Below are positions 20,599 through 24,886 of a DNA stretch of 49,586 bases, piece by piece; position 1 is the stretch's first letter, and the number at the start of each line of letters is the position of its first letter. Position numbers and translations under genes: made by a program. Under the pieces are notes generated by a model. It did not search any database and had not been told where the DNA came from. It worked only from the letters and a program-made list of their open reading frames with translations. Where the stretch lies: the IMG/VR virus record IMGVR_UViG_3300019458_000047, positions 1 to 49,586 of that record, one strand, 5' to 3'. Source of the stretch: a virus.

Positions 20599-22407
20599 TT
20601 AAGCCGATTGCTTAATGTTATCCAAAGTGATTGTGTTAAGGATGAAGTCGATTCCTTGTACTGGAGTGATCGTGATGTTAACTTTTGCAGTGTTACCAAG
20701 GAGCGTTACGGTCAAGTCTTTCCAACCTAGGCCGCTGTTTGTGTCGTCGCCAACTGTGATATCAGCATCCAAGAACTGTTGCATGATTGCGATAACAGTG
20801 TTTTTGATTGCCAATGCGCTTCCGCTCTTAGCTTTTTCACCGACATAGATTGCTTCGAGTTGTTGACGAAGATTGAATGCTACAACGTCAGCTGCATAAA
20901 GAACGCTAGGTCTGTTGAACACGAAGTTTGCATCTTTGCCATAAGTTGAGTTTTGAACAACTACTCGGATTCCACCGCTGTCTGGTTCTTCGAGAGCAAG
21001 TAGTCCGCCAGCGATTGCGAGATCGCTTTGAGTTTTAGCATTGTAGTCTTGGTGTTTAATGCTGTTAGCTGCTACGAGTTTGAAAGTAGCAGGAGTTCCA
21101 ACATCAGTACCAGCCTGAATACCAGCGATCATGCATGCTGCTGCCCATGGGTCCAAGAACTTAAGATTTCCATCTGTTCCCAAAACTTCAACGTCTTGGA
21201 AAAGCATAGAAGCACGTTCGTGGTTAAGATCAAGAGCCGCTGCTTGAGTGTTTGCAAATGAGTCTTTCTTCGAAACGTAAGTGTTACGTTCACTTCGGTT
21301 CTTGGTGTTTGAGGCCAAAATACAGTGAGTAACTGCTTGGGTGTTGATAGCATCTACAGTAAACGTAGAAGAAGGATCTGTAAGACCTTCAGTGATCAAA
21401 GCAGAAGCATTTCTTGAAACTAGAGTAACTACAGTGTTGATTCGAGCTGCTAACAAAGCGTCAAAAGCTGATTGGAAGTTTGAGTTAGTCGATGCTCCAG
21501 TTGCTCCACCAGTCAAAAACGTTTTTACAAGAGCTGCGATAGTTCCTTCAACGTTTGCAACGCGAGTTGCTGTGATCAATGCAGATTGACCGTTGATGAT
21601 ATCGAGTAGTTCTTTTTGTTGTGCTCGTAGTGTTTTAGCTGTGGTCAAGATGTCTAATGCTGTTGAAATAGAATCTAGATCCGCTGCACTCTTCGAAGAA
21701 GCAAGTTTATAAGTAGTAGTACAAGTGTACGAAAGTCCGCCGTTAAAGTTAGCGATAAGTTCTACGACTTGAGACAACGTTTTACCAGTAAGAAGAATAT
21801 TTTGGTTATCCGTAGCTGCGCCAGTAACAGTAGTTGTCAGGGTGTTGTTTTGAATCAACAACGTAGCTGCGGTGCCTGCACCGATGTATTGAATCGACAA
21901 CATAGCGTCGTATGCGTTTTCAGGAAGAACTTCTTTGGTGTCACCTTTTTGAACTGTGATGATACGAGCATTTACGTTTGTTCCAGCTTCAACCTTAACG
22001 CTGATCAAGTTTTGATCTGCGCCCCAATTTGCTGACGTGATAGTAAACAAATTTACAGGAGCTGCGTTTTTAAGGCTAAGAGTTGCTTGTGTAGAAGCAT
22101 TTGTTTTGTAAACGCGAATCAAGCTAGCACCGTTTGGGACTCGGTTATCACGAGCAGGAGCGATCAAAATGCGAGCTGCATCTACGATCGAACCGCTTCC
22201 ATACTTCGCAATCAAAGCTGCGATGTCTTCACTAGTAAAAGTCTGAACACCATCAGATGATCCAGGAGCACCGTTAAGAGCTTCTCCTACAAGTGCTACG
22301 ATACCAGTAGCAGCTAGTGGAAACCCACCCGAAAGGTTAACAACCGTTTTCGAGTACGCGCCAGGGTGAAAAAGACTAGCTCCGTTAAAATTTTGATTAA
22401 TAGCCAT
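20599..22407 (-). CDS. Tail sheath protein, 602 aa
   Basis: The start (NGASLFHPGAYSKTVVN) and the phrase 'GIVALVGEALNGAPG', then 'YGSGSIVDAARILIAPA' are typical of contractile tail sheath proteins. The C-terminal domain has the sheath order 'RPSVLYAADVVAFNLRQQLE', 'KNTVIAIMQQFLDADI' and an ending strand 'AKVNITITPVQGIDFILNTI', which donates strands to neighbouring sheath subunits (known for the family). It is longer than minimal sheaths (near 400) because of a middle insertion (about 100-350). The protein sheathes the tube and contracts at infection. Ribosome site AGAGGAA. Confidence 0.9.
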   Translation of the reverse strand: MAINQNFNGASLFHPGAYSKTVVNLSGGFPLAATGIVALVGEALNGAPGSSDGVQTFTSEDIAALIAKYGSGSIVDAARILIAPARDNRVPNGASLIRVYKTNASTQATLSLKNAAPVNLFTITSANWGADQNLISVKVEAGTNVNARIITVQKGDTKEVLPENAYDAMLSIQYIGAGTAATLLIQNNTLTTTVTGAATDNQNILLTGKTLSQVVELIANFNGGLSYTCTTTYKLASSKSAADLDSISTALDILTTAKTLRAQQKELLDIINGQSALITATRVANVEGTIAALVKTFLTGGATGASTNSNFQSAFDALLAARINTVVTLVSRNASALITEGLTDPSSTFTVDAINTQAVTHCILASNTKNRSERNTYVSKKDSFANTQAAALDLNHERASMLFQDVEVLGTDGNLKFLDPWAAACMIAGIQAGTDVGTPATFKLVAANSIKHQDYNAKTQSDLAIAGGLLALEEPDSGGIRVVVQNSTYGKDANFVFNRPSVLYAADVVAFNLRQQLEAIYVGEKAKSGSALAIKNTVIAIMQQFLDADITVGDDTNSGLGWKDLTVTLLGNTAKVNITITPVQGIDFILNTITLDNIKQSA

Positions 22408-22728: not shown

Positions 22729-23598
22729 TTAATCTTCCGGTGAGGTATTCACAGGAATTGCGACATTACTATCAGGGGTTGGGTCTGGTACTTTAACAGT
22801 AAGGTCAAAGCAATCGAACACCTGTACAACTCCCTGATTCCATACGAATTCAGTCAAGCAATTTACTTCCAAAAATCGACTGAAAATGTTTTCACCCTGA
22901 AAGTCATTTTCTCGATCAAAGATGTTTCCAGTGCCTCGGTCTAATTCGATGCCCCTATTTATCAAGGAATCCTGTCTAGATTTAAGTATGTACACCAAGA
23001 TGTAGTAGATGAACTTAACAAGGTGGATATCGTTCTTGGCGTGGCAACCCAGCATGACCGTTTCTCGAATTCTGATCTGTCTACGCTCAGATCGGATAAA
23101 GTCGATCGAGCTTTCAATACGACCATCTCCGACTAATTGAGGAGTTTGTCCTGAGCCTATGTTGATGTATTTATTGCCAGACATGTTGCTAATACCGCTT
23201 TGGATTGGGAACTTGTTGTTATCGGCATCTACGAATACCATACCTGGGCATATCGGACTTAGATCTGCTGCATTAACTACGGTCAGTTTTCCGGTTAAAG
23301 TGTCATAAGTTCCAGGGGTTACCGTCGCAACATAAACAGTTGGAGTAGTTGAAGTTTCTTCATCCATGTAGTTATTTCCAAGATTTTGATCTTCCTCAGT
23401 TTCGTTGGCTCTCTGAAGTTGGATTGATATGCAGGGAATTGAGGTAGGAACCATACTCCAAGCGTGTACAATCTTAATTTGGTTATTAACTATGTACGTC
23501 TTGATACTGTCGATTTTGTCTTGGCCGTATTGGTTGATAAACTGAGCCTCTAAGAACTTGCTAAAGATGTCATCGATTTTAGCTGGGGTTGCACGCAA
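22729..23598 (-). CDS. Neck / tail completion protein with a displaced start, 289 aa from a TTG
   Basis: The coordinates use a TTG codon, but the reading frame is open and plausibly coding further up to 23667, just before a TAG: it reads [15 protein letters not shown], then VIRDGLGELRATPAK. No ATG or GTG exists in this extension. The HNH gene upstream ends inside it, at TACTAA (23665-23660). If the HNH insert is removed, the ATG ACT at 24205-24200 would join ACT AAA ATC and give [11 protein letters not shown], a natural start. The TTG lies directly against GGAGAG, a poor ribosome spacing; ATC at 23658 has GGTAGGG seven bases upstream. Function is inferred from position between neck and sheath genes (virion protein); no family recognised. 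Confidence 0.65.
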   Translation of the reverse strand: MRATPAKIDDIFSKFLEAQFINQYGQDKIDSIKTYIVNNQIKIVHAWSMVPTSIPCISIQLQRANETEEDQNLGNNYMDEETSTTPTVYVATVTPGTYDTLTGKLTVVNAADLSPICPGMVFVDADNNKFPIQSGISNMSGNKYINIGSGQTPQLVGDGRIESSIDFIRSERRQIRIRETVMLGCHAKNDIHLVKFIYYILVYILKSRQDSLINRGIELDRGTGNIFDRENDFQGENIFSRFLEVNCLTEFVWNQGVVQVFDCFDLTVKVPDPTPDSNVAIPVNTSPED

Positions 23599-23659
23599 CT
23601 CTCCAAGCCCATCTCTAATAACGGTTTCAATTACAAATTCTGTAATAGGTGCGCCGATT

Positions 23660-24205
23660 TTAGTACCCTACCTTATTGAGGCGATTTCCCTTCTTGATAT
23701 TTTCTATAGCAGGAAGGTACTGCAGATTATACTCAACGTGCAAACCAGTTACATTTACGCCTCGTAATGGAACTATGTGGTCTACGTGGTATCCTTTAGG
23801 ACAATTCAAATAAACTTGTTTAATCTTCTCTAAACTTGCCCATTTTGGTGTTGCAAGTAGTTTAGTTGCTCTTCGTAGATTTTCGTTATATCTATGCAAC
23901 TTTTTTCCTCTTTCTGACTGTTTATACTTTTGATGTCTAATTTTTGTTTTTTCTTGATTAGCTTCTCTATAGCGTTTGCTTCTATCTGAATCTTGTCCAG
24001 ATACATATTTTATTTTACCATCGTTGTATCTTTGTTTTTGAATCTGACTAAGCCTAGCTCTTTCACAAACTTTACAGCTAGATCCTCTGCCTGACCAATT
24101 CCTAGATTCTAAAATAAACTCTTCTAAGATCTTGATTTGATTACAAGTCAAGCAGTGTCTTTTGCCTTCTAAAAACAACTCCCTGTTCTTGGCTCTACGA
24201 GTCAT
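23660..24205 (-). CDS. HNH homing endonuclease inserted at the start of a virion gene
   Basis: The N-terminal part has a zinc-binding pair of CxxC motifs (C18, C21, C44, C47). The C-terminal 45 residues carry the HNH core '[11 protein letters not shown]', with D142-H143, then '[16 protein letters not shown]' (N160, N169) and 'KKGNRL'. The middle is basic (Arg/Lys-rich helix), fitting DNA contact. The gene starts directly after the TAA of the upstream neck gene and ends just inside the frame of the next gene. The motif set is that of free-standing phage HNH endonucleases, which nick DNA in phages lacking the gene and spread by repair. Insert length is about 538 bases, nearly equal to the gene itself, so no intron surrounds it. 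Confidence 0.9.
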
Positions 24206-24886
24206 TTACATCATCCTCTCTAAGATCTTATCGAAGTTATTTTCGATATATGTATCCAAGCTTTCTAAAACCTTAGCTCCTTGAAACGGAGTTTTAGGCC
24301 ATTGACTTTTGTCTGTGACCCTTCGAATTGTAAGATAGTTAGTTTCTCCGGTCTCGGGCTTGGTTGACTTAATTATATCCTGAACTCGACTAATAATTCG
24401 TTTTTCTTGACGTACCCCGCCTCGTTTCCAATCTGAGAAGGTTACGTTCTTGATGAGGTCGTCTGCGTTCTTAAAAGCACTAACATTCACTTTAGGACCT
24501 TTTTTTCCAAGAGTCATGTTACCAGCTGCGTCCGCGTCTCTTGCGATAGGTACGTCTACGTAATTTTTACCTTCGGATTTATTATGCTCAGCGCGGTTAC
24601 CTTGCATGATAGCTTTCGACACTTCTCCCGCTTGCATGCCTTGTTCCATCCAATTAGCAAGTTGGCCGGTGACTGATATGATGTAGAAGTCATCTGTGAC
24701 TTTGTTGATCTTAAAACCTTCTTTCCACTTCTTCAGTCCGACTTTTAATTTTAAACTAGCTACTTTGTCAGCTTCGCTGTTAACGTCCGAGACTAACGCA
24801 GCAACTGCGCTTTTGAAGCGAGATCGAAAACCGTCAACTATTTCTGATGCATCAAAATCAGAAGTGTCAAACTTAAATTTAAACAT
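24206..24886 (-). CDS. Neck / tail completion protein, 226 aa (probable)
   Basis: A 226-residue protein beginning MFKFKFDTSDFDASEIVDGF. The helix 'DGFRSRFKSAVAALVSDVNS' followed by 'LKLKVGLKKWKEGFKINKVT' and 'YIISVTGQLANWMEQGM' resembles the layout of HK97 gp10-like tail-completion proteins (long N-terminal helix, then a beta sheet with 'a..w..G'). It lies among connector genes. The stop TAA is immediately followed by the ATG of the HNH gene, which suggests that this junction was originally the start of the next virion gene. The family call is tentative. Confidence 0.6.
   Translation of the reverse strand: MFKFKFDTSDFDASEIVDGFRSRFKSAVAALVSDVNSEADKVASLKLKVGLKKWKEGFKINKVTDDFYIISVTGQLANWMEQGMQAGEVSKAIMQGNRAEHNKSEGKNYVDVPIARDADAAGNMTLGKKGPKVNVSAFKNADDLIKNVTFSDWKRGGVRQEKRIISRVQDIIKSTKPETGETNYLTIRRVTDKSQWPKTPFQGAKVLESLDTYIENNFDKILERMM

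Follow-up and report, generated by a model that had tools for sequence, protein, structure and literature searches.

A free-standing endonuclease VII-like HNH gene appears to have inserted precisely on the start codon of a predicted neck/tail-terminator gene in the phage of IMG/VR record IMGVR_UViG_3300019458_000047 (the window, that is, the whole stretch of 49,586 nucleotides analysed here), leaving this virion gene with ATC at 23658, where its relatives carry ATG. Comparison with those relatives shows the site of the insertion, the loss of the ATG, the takeover of the resident Shine-Dalgarno (SD) sequence and the conserved N-terminus of the virion protein. The explanation we favour, and hold to be somewhat probable, is that the insertion drove the loss of the start codon and that the virion gene is now translated from the AUC, aided by termination-reinitiation at the end of the HNH gene.

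The genes concerned lie on the minus strand in the order neck gene, HNH gene, virion gene, a small ORF (22681-22424) and tail sheath gene (Table 1). ORF reading confirmed the preliminary description in that the TAA of the neck gene (24208-24206) is followed without a gap by the HNH ATG, with the HNH gene opening ATG ACT (24205-24200) CGT and closing GGG TAC TAA (stop at 23662-23660). Offset by +1 from the HNH frame, the virion frame reads, after a TAG at 23670-23668, GGT ACT AAA ATC GGC GCA CCT ATT ACA GAA. Back to that TAG it holds no ATG or GTG before 23598, as had been claimed, nor any TTG; the earliest of the three codons is the TTG at 23598, where the 289-aa ORF begins, against 309 aa from the ATC.

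Table 1. Features of the HNH/virion gene junction and its surroundings, in window positions.
Feature	Position	Strand	Remarks
Tail sheath gene	20599..22407	-	PHROG 279; bait for finding relatives
Virion gene, predicted neck/tail-terminator protein	22729..23658	-	309 aa from ATC; two genes upstream of tail sheath
TTG, start by standard ORF search	23596..23598	-	choice would cut the conserved first 20 residues
ATC, predicted virion-gene initiation codon	23656..23658	-	aligned with ATG of 14 relatives; 1 nt past HNH TAA
Inferred insert, 547 bp	23656..24202 (equivalently 24205-23659)	-	against 14 relatives without HNH here
Free-standing endonuclease VII-like HNH gene	23660..24205	-	181 aa; PHROG 1035 endonuclease VII, E=1e-13
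SD-like AGGG	23666..23669	-	in HNH C-terminal KVGY codons; 7 nt to ATC; AAGG at 23674-23671
Neck/head-completion gene	24206..24886	-	226 aa, PHROG 16819; 62% identical to L001
GAGAGG Shine-Dalgarno	24215..24220	-	in neck-gene end; homologous to L001/L004 virion-gene SD, GAGAGG...CTGTAATG / TTGTAATG; now before HNH ATG

IMG/VR supplied relatives of the sheath and virion proteins, and the virion-gene start is covered by 14 distinct contigs (L016 and L020 being repeats of L001 and L004, and L019 having the same start as L015). Twelve of the 14 are closely related and have an identifiable neck gene immediately upstream; none of the 14 has an HNH gene there. An ATG is aligned with the window's ATC (23658-23656) in all 14, a few of which are only distantly related, bearing out the earlier proposal that the virion gene had been left without its ATG. 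The start reads MGAPLTEFVIET in L005 and L006, against IGAPITEFVIET in the window. At the protein level, close relatives begin MGAPLTEF (the window counterpart being IGAPITEF), MSAPLTEF or MSAPMTEF (L007, L009, L011-L014, L102), or MPAPMTEL (L001, L004), and L017 begins MGFPLSEF. An alignment of homologues had been expected to yield an MTKIG-like start, from an ancestral ATG ACT AAA ATC; instead relatives start MGAP, MSAP, MPAP or MGFP, none has the joined sequence, and the proposed start was off by three codons. Nor did any homologue begin near 23598, an outcome that was looked for and that would have refuted the earlier proposal.

Codons 2-21 after the ATC differ from the 12 relatives at 10-14 third positions against 0-3 second positions, a pattern that identifies them as conserved coding sequence; at this N-terminus the window has no ATG, GTG or TTG. 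Coding conservation over 23599-23667, on which the preliminary description had also hung its reading, was therefore found in part: the codons GGT ACT AAA before the ATC (23667-23659) have no counterpart in relatives. By this alignment the virion gene proper would start where the ATC stands, at the former ATG position, and the protein should begin there because codons 2-21 are constrained and a helix is predicted over them. The virion protein is 52-65% identical to those of the 12 relatives, and its 309 codons form an intact frame that is conserved from end to end; the age of the insertion cannot be fixed, and the signal of selection in the virion gene may therefore predate it. On the DNA level the loss of the ATG is a matter of one base (ATG against ATC) in one genome: a search of IMG/VR by DNA pattern returned no second copy of the HNH/virion junction (collections may omit near-identical records), no relatives were found in the genome_contigs collection, and phage isolates gave no DNA-level match. 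Against isolates the virion protein has a sole match, to Mx1, at 22% identity.

Relatives also delimit the insert, with boundaries at neck TAA-ATG on one side and GGC GCA on the other. The removal of 538 bases proposed earlier, joining ATG ACT to AAA ATC, is sound as arithmetic, but the natural insert according to relatives is 547 bp. This insert may lie between ATG and GGC, in which case the ATC was carried in at its end, or it may lie between the TAA and an ATG start codon that subsequently became ATC; the window sequence fits both placements equally. The SD that L001 and L004 use for the virion gene lies within the final neck-gene codons, with initiation there from GAGAGG (GAGAGGTTTCTGTAATG, GAGAGGTATTTGTAATG). 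At the same site the window reads GAGAGGATGATGTAAATG, and its ATG is the start of the HNH gene (GAGAGG...TAAATG). The suggestion that the HNH gene occupies the initiation site of the virion gene thus stands, and on this homology the SD and ATG position of the virion gene have been taken over by the HNH gene, whose expression they would now drive.

The HNH gene also matches PHROG 2633 (endonuclease VII) and PHROG 2340 (endonuclease), and its translation has the residues of a CxxC..CxxC plus DH..N..N motif on inspection; a Pfam search at E 0.1 returned no match. We infer endonuclease activity from these matches and regard the gene as a putative homing endonuclease. It is missing at this site in all 14 distinct relatives, some of which carry a paralogous copy upstream of the tape-measure gene. 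The HNH gene has its own ATG and stop, lies in neither an intron nor an intein, and fills the insert with its ORF. A group I intron carrying the HNH gene was rejected in agreement with the earlier argument that an insert of the size of the HNH gene leaves no space for one: insert length equals that of the HNH ORF, and Rfam found no group I intron or riboswitch in the window at gathering score, nor anything relevant at E values up to 5; no tRNA was found in the window either.

Relatives of the HNH gene were examined at 80 IMG/VR loci and in several isolates, from which 20 non-redundant junctions were picked for having a gene of at least 100 aa starting -20 to +15 nt from the HNH stop. Fourteen of these junctions overlap and six abut; the downstream genes start with ATG in 16 cases and TTG in four, too few to claim an enrichment of TTG. 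At several junctions the codons of a conserved KGN motif constitute an SD (e.g. AAAGGGAATAAATAATG in L025). In Erwinia phage RF1 (PV942687), the HNH gene (1132-1635) overlaps polA (1622 onward) by 14 nt, and the polA frame has no ATG, only a TTG 7 nt past AAGGGG within the KGN motif; relatives of this polA start ATG AGT TTT CTT TTC, with the ATG two codons earlier than the TTG of RF1. At a further locus (L041, 4249-4863) a tail-fibre-like gene starts with TTG inside the HNH 3' end, where its HTVC115P relative has ATG. This locus had been a candidate for a second ATC start and was rejected as such, HTVC115P showing that the start is the TTG four codons upstream. Counted with these two, the window is by comparison with relatives the third loss of an ATG at a junction of this family, and the one with the weakest replacement codon. 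A broader proposal, which we offer tentatively and regard as rather doubtful, is that the family settles on the starts of essential genes and that the neighbour's lost ribosome-binding site and start are made good by the HNH gene's own 3' coding end (the KGN motif, AARGGNAAY, or an added tail), putting the neighbour under the translational control of the parasite, so that precise loss of the element would be costly; here AUC would drive the neck gene.

The family bears on whether the ATC is genuine. The true codon could instead be ATG, hidden by a minority variant or by an error of consensus or assembly, with the HNH gene merely inserted between the neck gene and an intact virion gene: one C-to-G change gives TAA-A-ATG-GGC, an arrangement common in this HNH family, whose stops are often close to or overlap a downstream ATG. 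We consider this unlikely, however, as frameshifts are absent from the conserved genes nearby, several of which start at the ATG found in relatives, a random slip would need to strike exactly the gene behind the HNH gene, and loss of a neighbour's ATG has occurred independently at other HNH genes of the family.

The predicted fold of the virion protein, a model of moderate confidence, resembles neck/tail-terminators of the phage 812 / T4 gp15 type. Foldseek aligned its model with the phage 812 neck protein (8qkh_G, E=1e-6, probability 1.0, TM 0.42, at a mean pLDDT of only 66) and less strongly with T4 gp15 (4huh, E=0.02), and the position of the gene between neck and sheath genes is as expected for such a protein; a sequence search against the PDB gave no match. 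Residues 5-23 of the model form an N-terminal helix. Neck/tail-terminator proteins assemble into hexameric rings and are therefore required in small numbers only.

The start signal that the tail end of the HNH gene supplies to the neck protein is probably very weak. AUC is among the seven strongest initiation codons of E. coli (PMC12350097), but near-cognate AUN starts are described as very weak, AUA reaching at most 1% of AUG (as cited in PMC12864459). The AGGG upstream of the ATC ranks sixth against 40 other genes by a gapped duplex measure, in the top 1.5% or so of random positions. By a contiguous measure it is ordinary for genes of this phage and is matched by 9% of random positions, and an initial reading of AGGG as a strong SD was toned down accordingly. 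The AUC itself is predicted to be about 95% unpaired. Re-initiation is most efficient at short distances between stop and start, and an SD helps (PMC2268962, PMC12548453); the HNH stop 1 nt before the ATC is an arrangement of this kind. In the proposed sequence of events, ribosomes ending at the HNH UAA would re-initiate on the AUC, 1 nt past the stop, with AUC initiation aided by the SD-like AGGG in the HNH 3' end. Output of the virion protein would be low, which could be tolerable with about six copies of the neck protein needed per particle.

If AUC initiation is as weak as expected, the insertion could instead have destroyed the start outright and left the neck gene silent or nearly so, in a defective or complemented genome or through a recent deleterious insertion. 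This seems rather improbable given that the whole length of the 309-codon frame is intact and conserved, that an unpaired start and an SD-like sequence are present, and that polA persists in the isolated phage RF1 after a comparable loss of its ATG. Translation beginning downstream, at ATT 23646 or TTG 23598, is a little less probable still. The preliminary description had listed both codons beside ATC 23658 as possible non-AUG starts, of which ATC is now favoured and the other two are disfavoured. TTG normally serves as a secondary start, and a GGAG stands close before 23598, but at just 2 nt, and initiation there would cost the protein 20 conserved residues, among them most of the predicted helix; ATT 23646 has no SD at a proper spacing. 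The earlier option of a +1 ribosomal frameshift at the HNH end, yielding an HNH-virion fusion, draws on the virion frame being +1 to that of the HNH gene and having nine open bases ahead of the ATC. It appears very improbable: the slip must fall within GGG UAC UAA, where tRNA-Tyr cannot re-pair on ACU and a slip from GGG to GGU would not sit at the stop codon, there is no known stimulatory motif, and the product would put an endonuclease on the neck protein.

Free-standing homing endonucleases that abut their neighbours are already known, and an insertion-caused change of ATG to ATC has been mentioned for one gene. For the free-standing homing endonucleases of T4, overlap with the upstream gene and coupling have been discussed (PMC2988022). 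Like the window HNH gene, the seg and mob genes of T4-like phages are stand-alone endonuclease genes in the space between conserved genes (PMC2988022), and the start of T4 mobE (UAAUGA) abuts the upstream stop, with coupling proposed. In T4, however, the overlap discussed involves the upstream gene and bears on how the endonuclease is expressed, whereas in the window it is the downstream virion gene that has lost its SD and ATG. A close parallel in an isolate is the RF1 HNH/polA junction, with the same HNH family, a 3' end that replaces the ATG of the neighbour and an SD at 7 nt; it differs in using TTG, a normal secondary start, and in having the HNH stop inside polA. L041 likewise shares the family and the loss of the ATG seen in a relative, but with TTG rather than ATC and on an uncultured contig. 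Natural use of an AUN near-cognate start is exemplified by E. coli infC, whose AUU start is conserved and autoregulatory, whereas the ATC described here is private to one genome. In a Neisseria T6SS PAAR copy, insertion of a CREE changed the start from ATG to ATC (PMC10210955); there, as proposed for the window, a mobile-element insertion turned ATG into ATC, although the element is a different one and the gene is bacterial.

Should the ATC be genuine, a structural gene that looks essential has been pushed by a mobile endonuclease onto one of the weaker initiation codons, and the locus offers a natural test of the minimal initiation needed for a neck protein and of termination-reinitiation as a rescue of near-cognate starts. 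That HNH 3' ends repeatedly abut or replace the ribosome-binding sites and starts of their neighbours, in isolates too, suggests a route into gene-dense genomes without killing the neighbour. The junction pattern also explains genes truncated by gene callers, such as the 289 rather than 309 residues that routine ORF search gives here.

The tail sheath protein of the window is 63-74% identical to those of a group of uncultured phages, whose contigs reach about 118 kb, and less than 30% identical to those of isolates, e.g. SPO1-like phages; judging by these identities, the myophage group seems to have no cultured member within the searched collection. In two sister phages (L006, 10670-11206; L102, 10708-11256) a paralogous HNH gene immediately precedes the tape-measure gene, which it overlaps at TAATG, and its KKGN codons (AAAAAGGGAAAT) resemble an SD of the tape-measure gene. 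In Vibrio phage D181, an HNH gene with a GTG start (937-1605) overlaps a tail protein gene (1592 onward) by 14 nt, and an AAGGAG inside the HNH gene is the likely SD of the tail protein gene.
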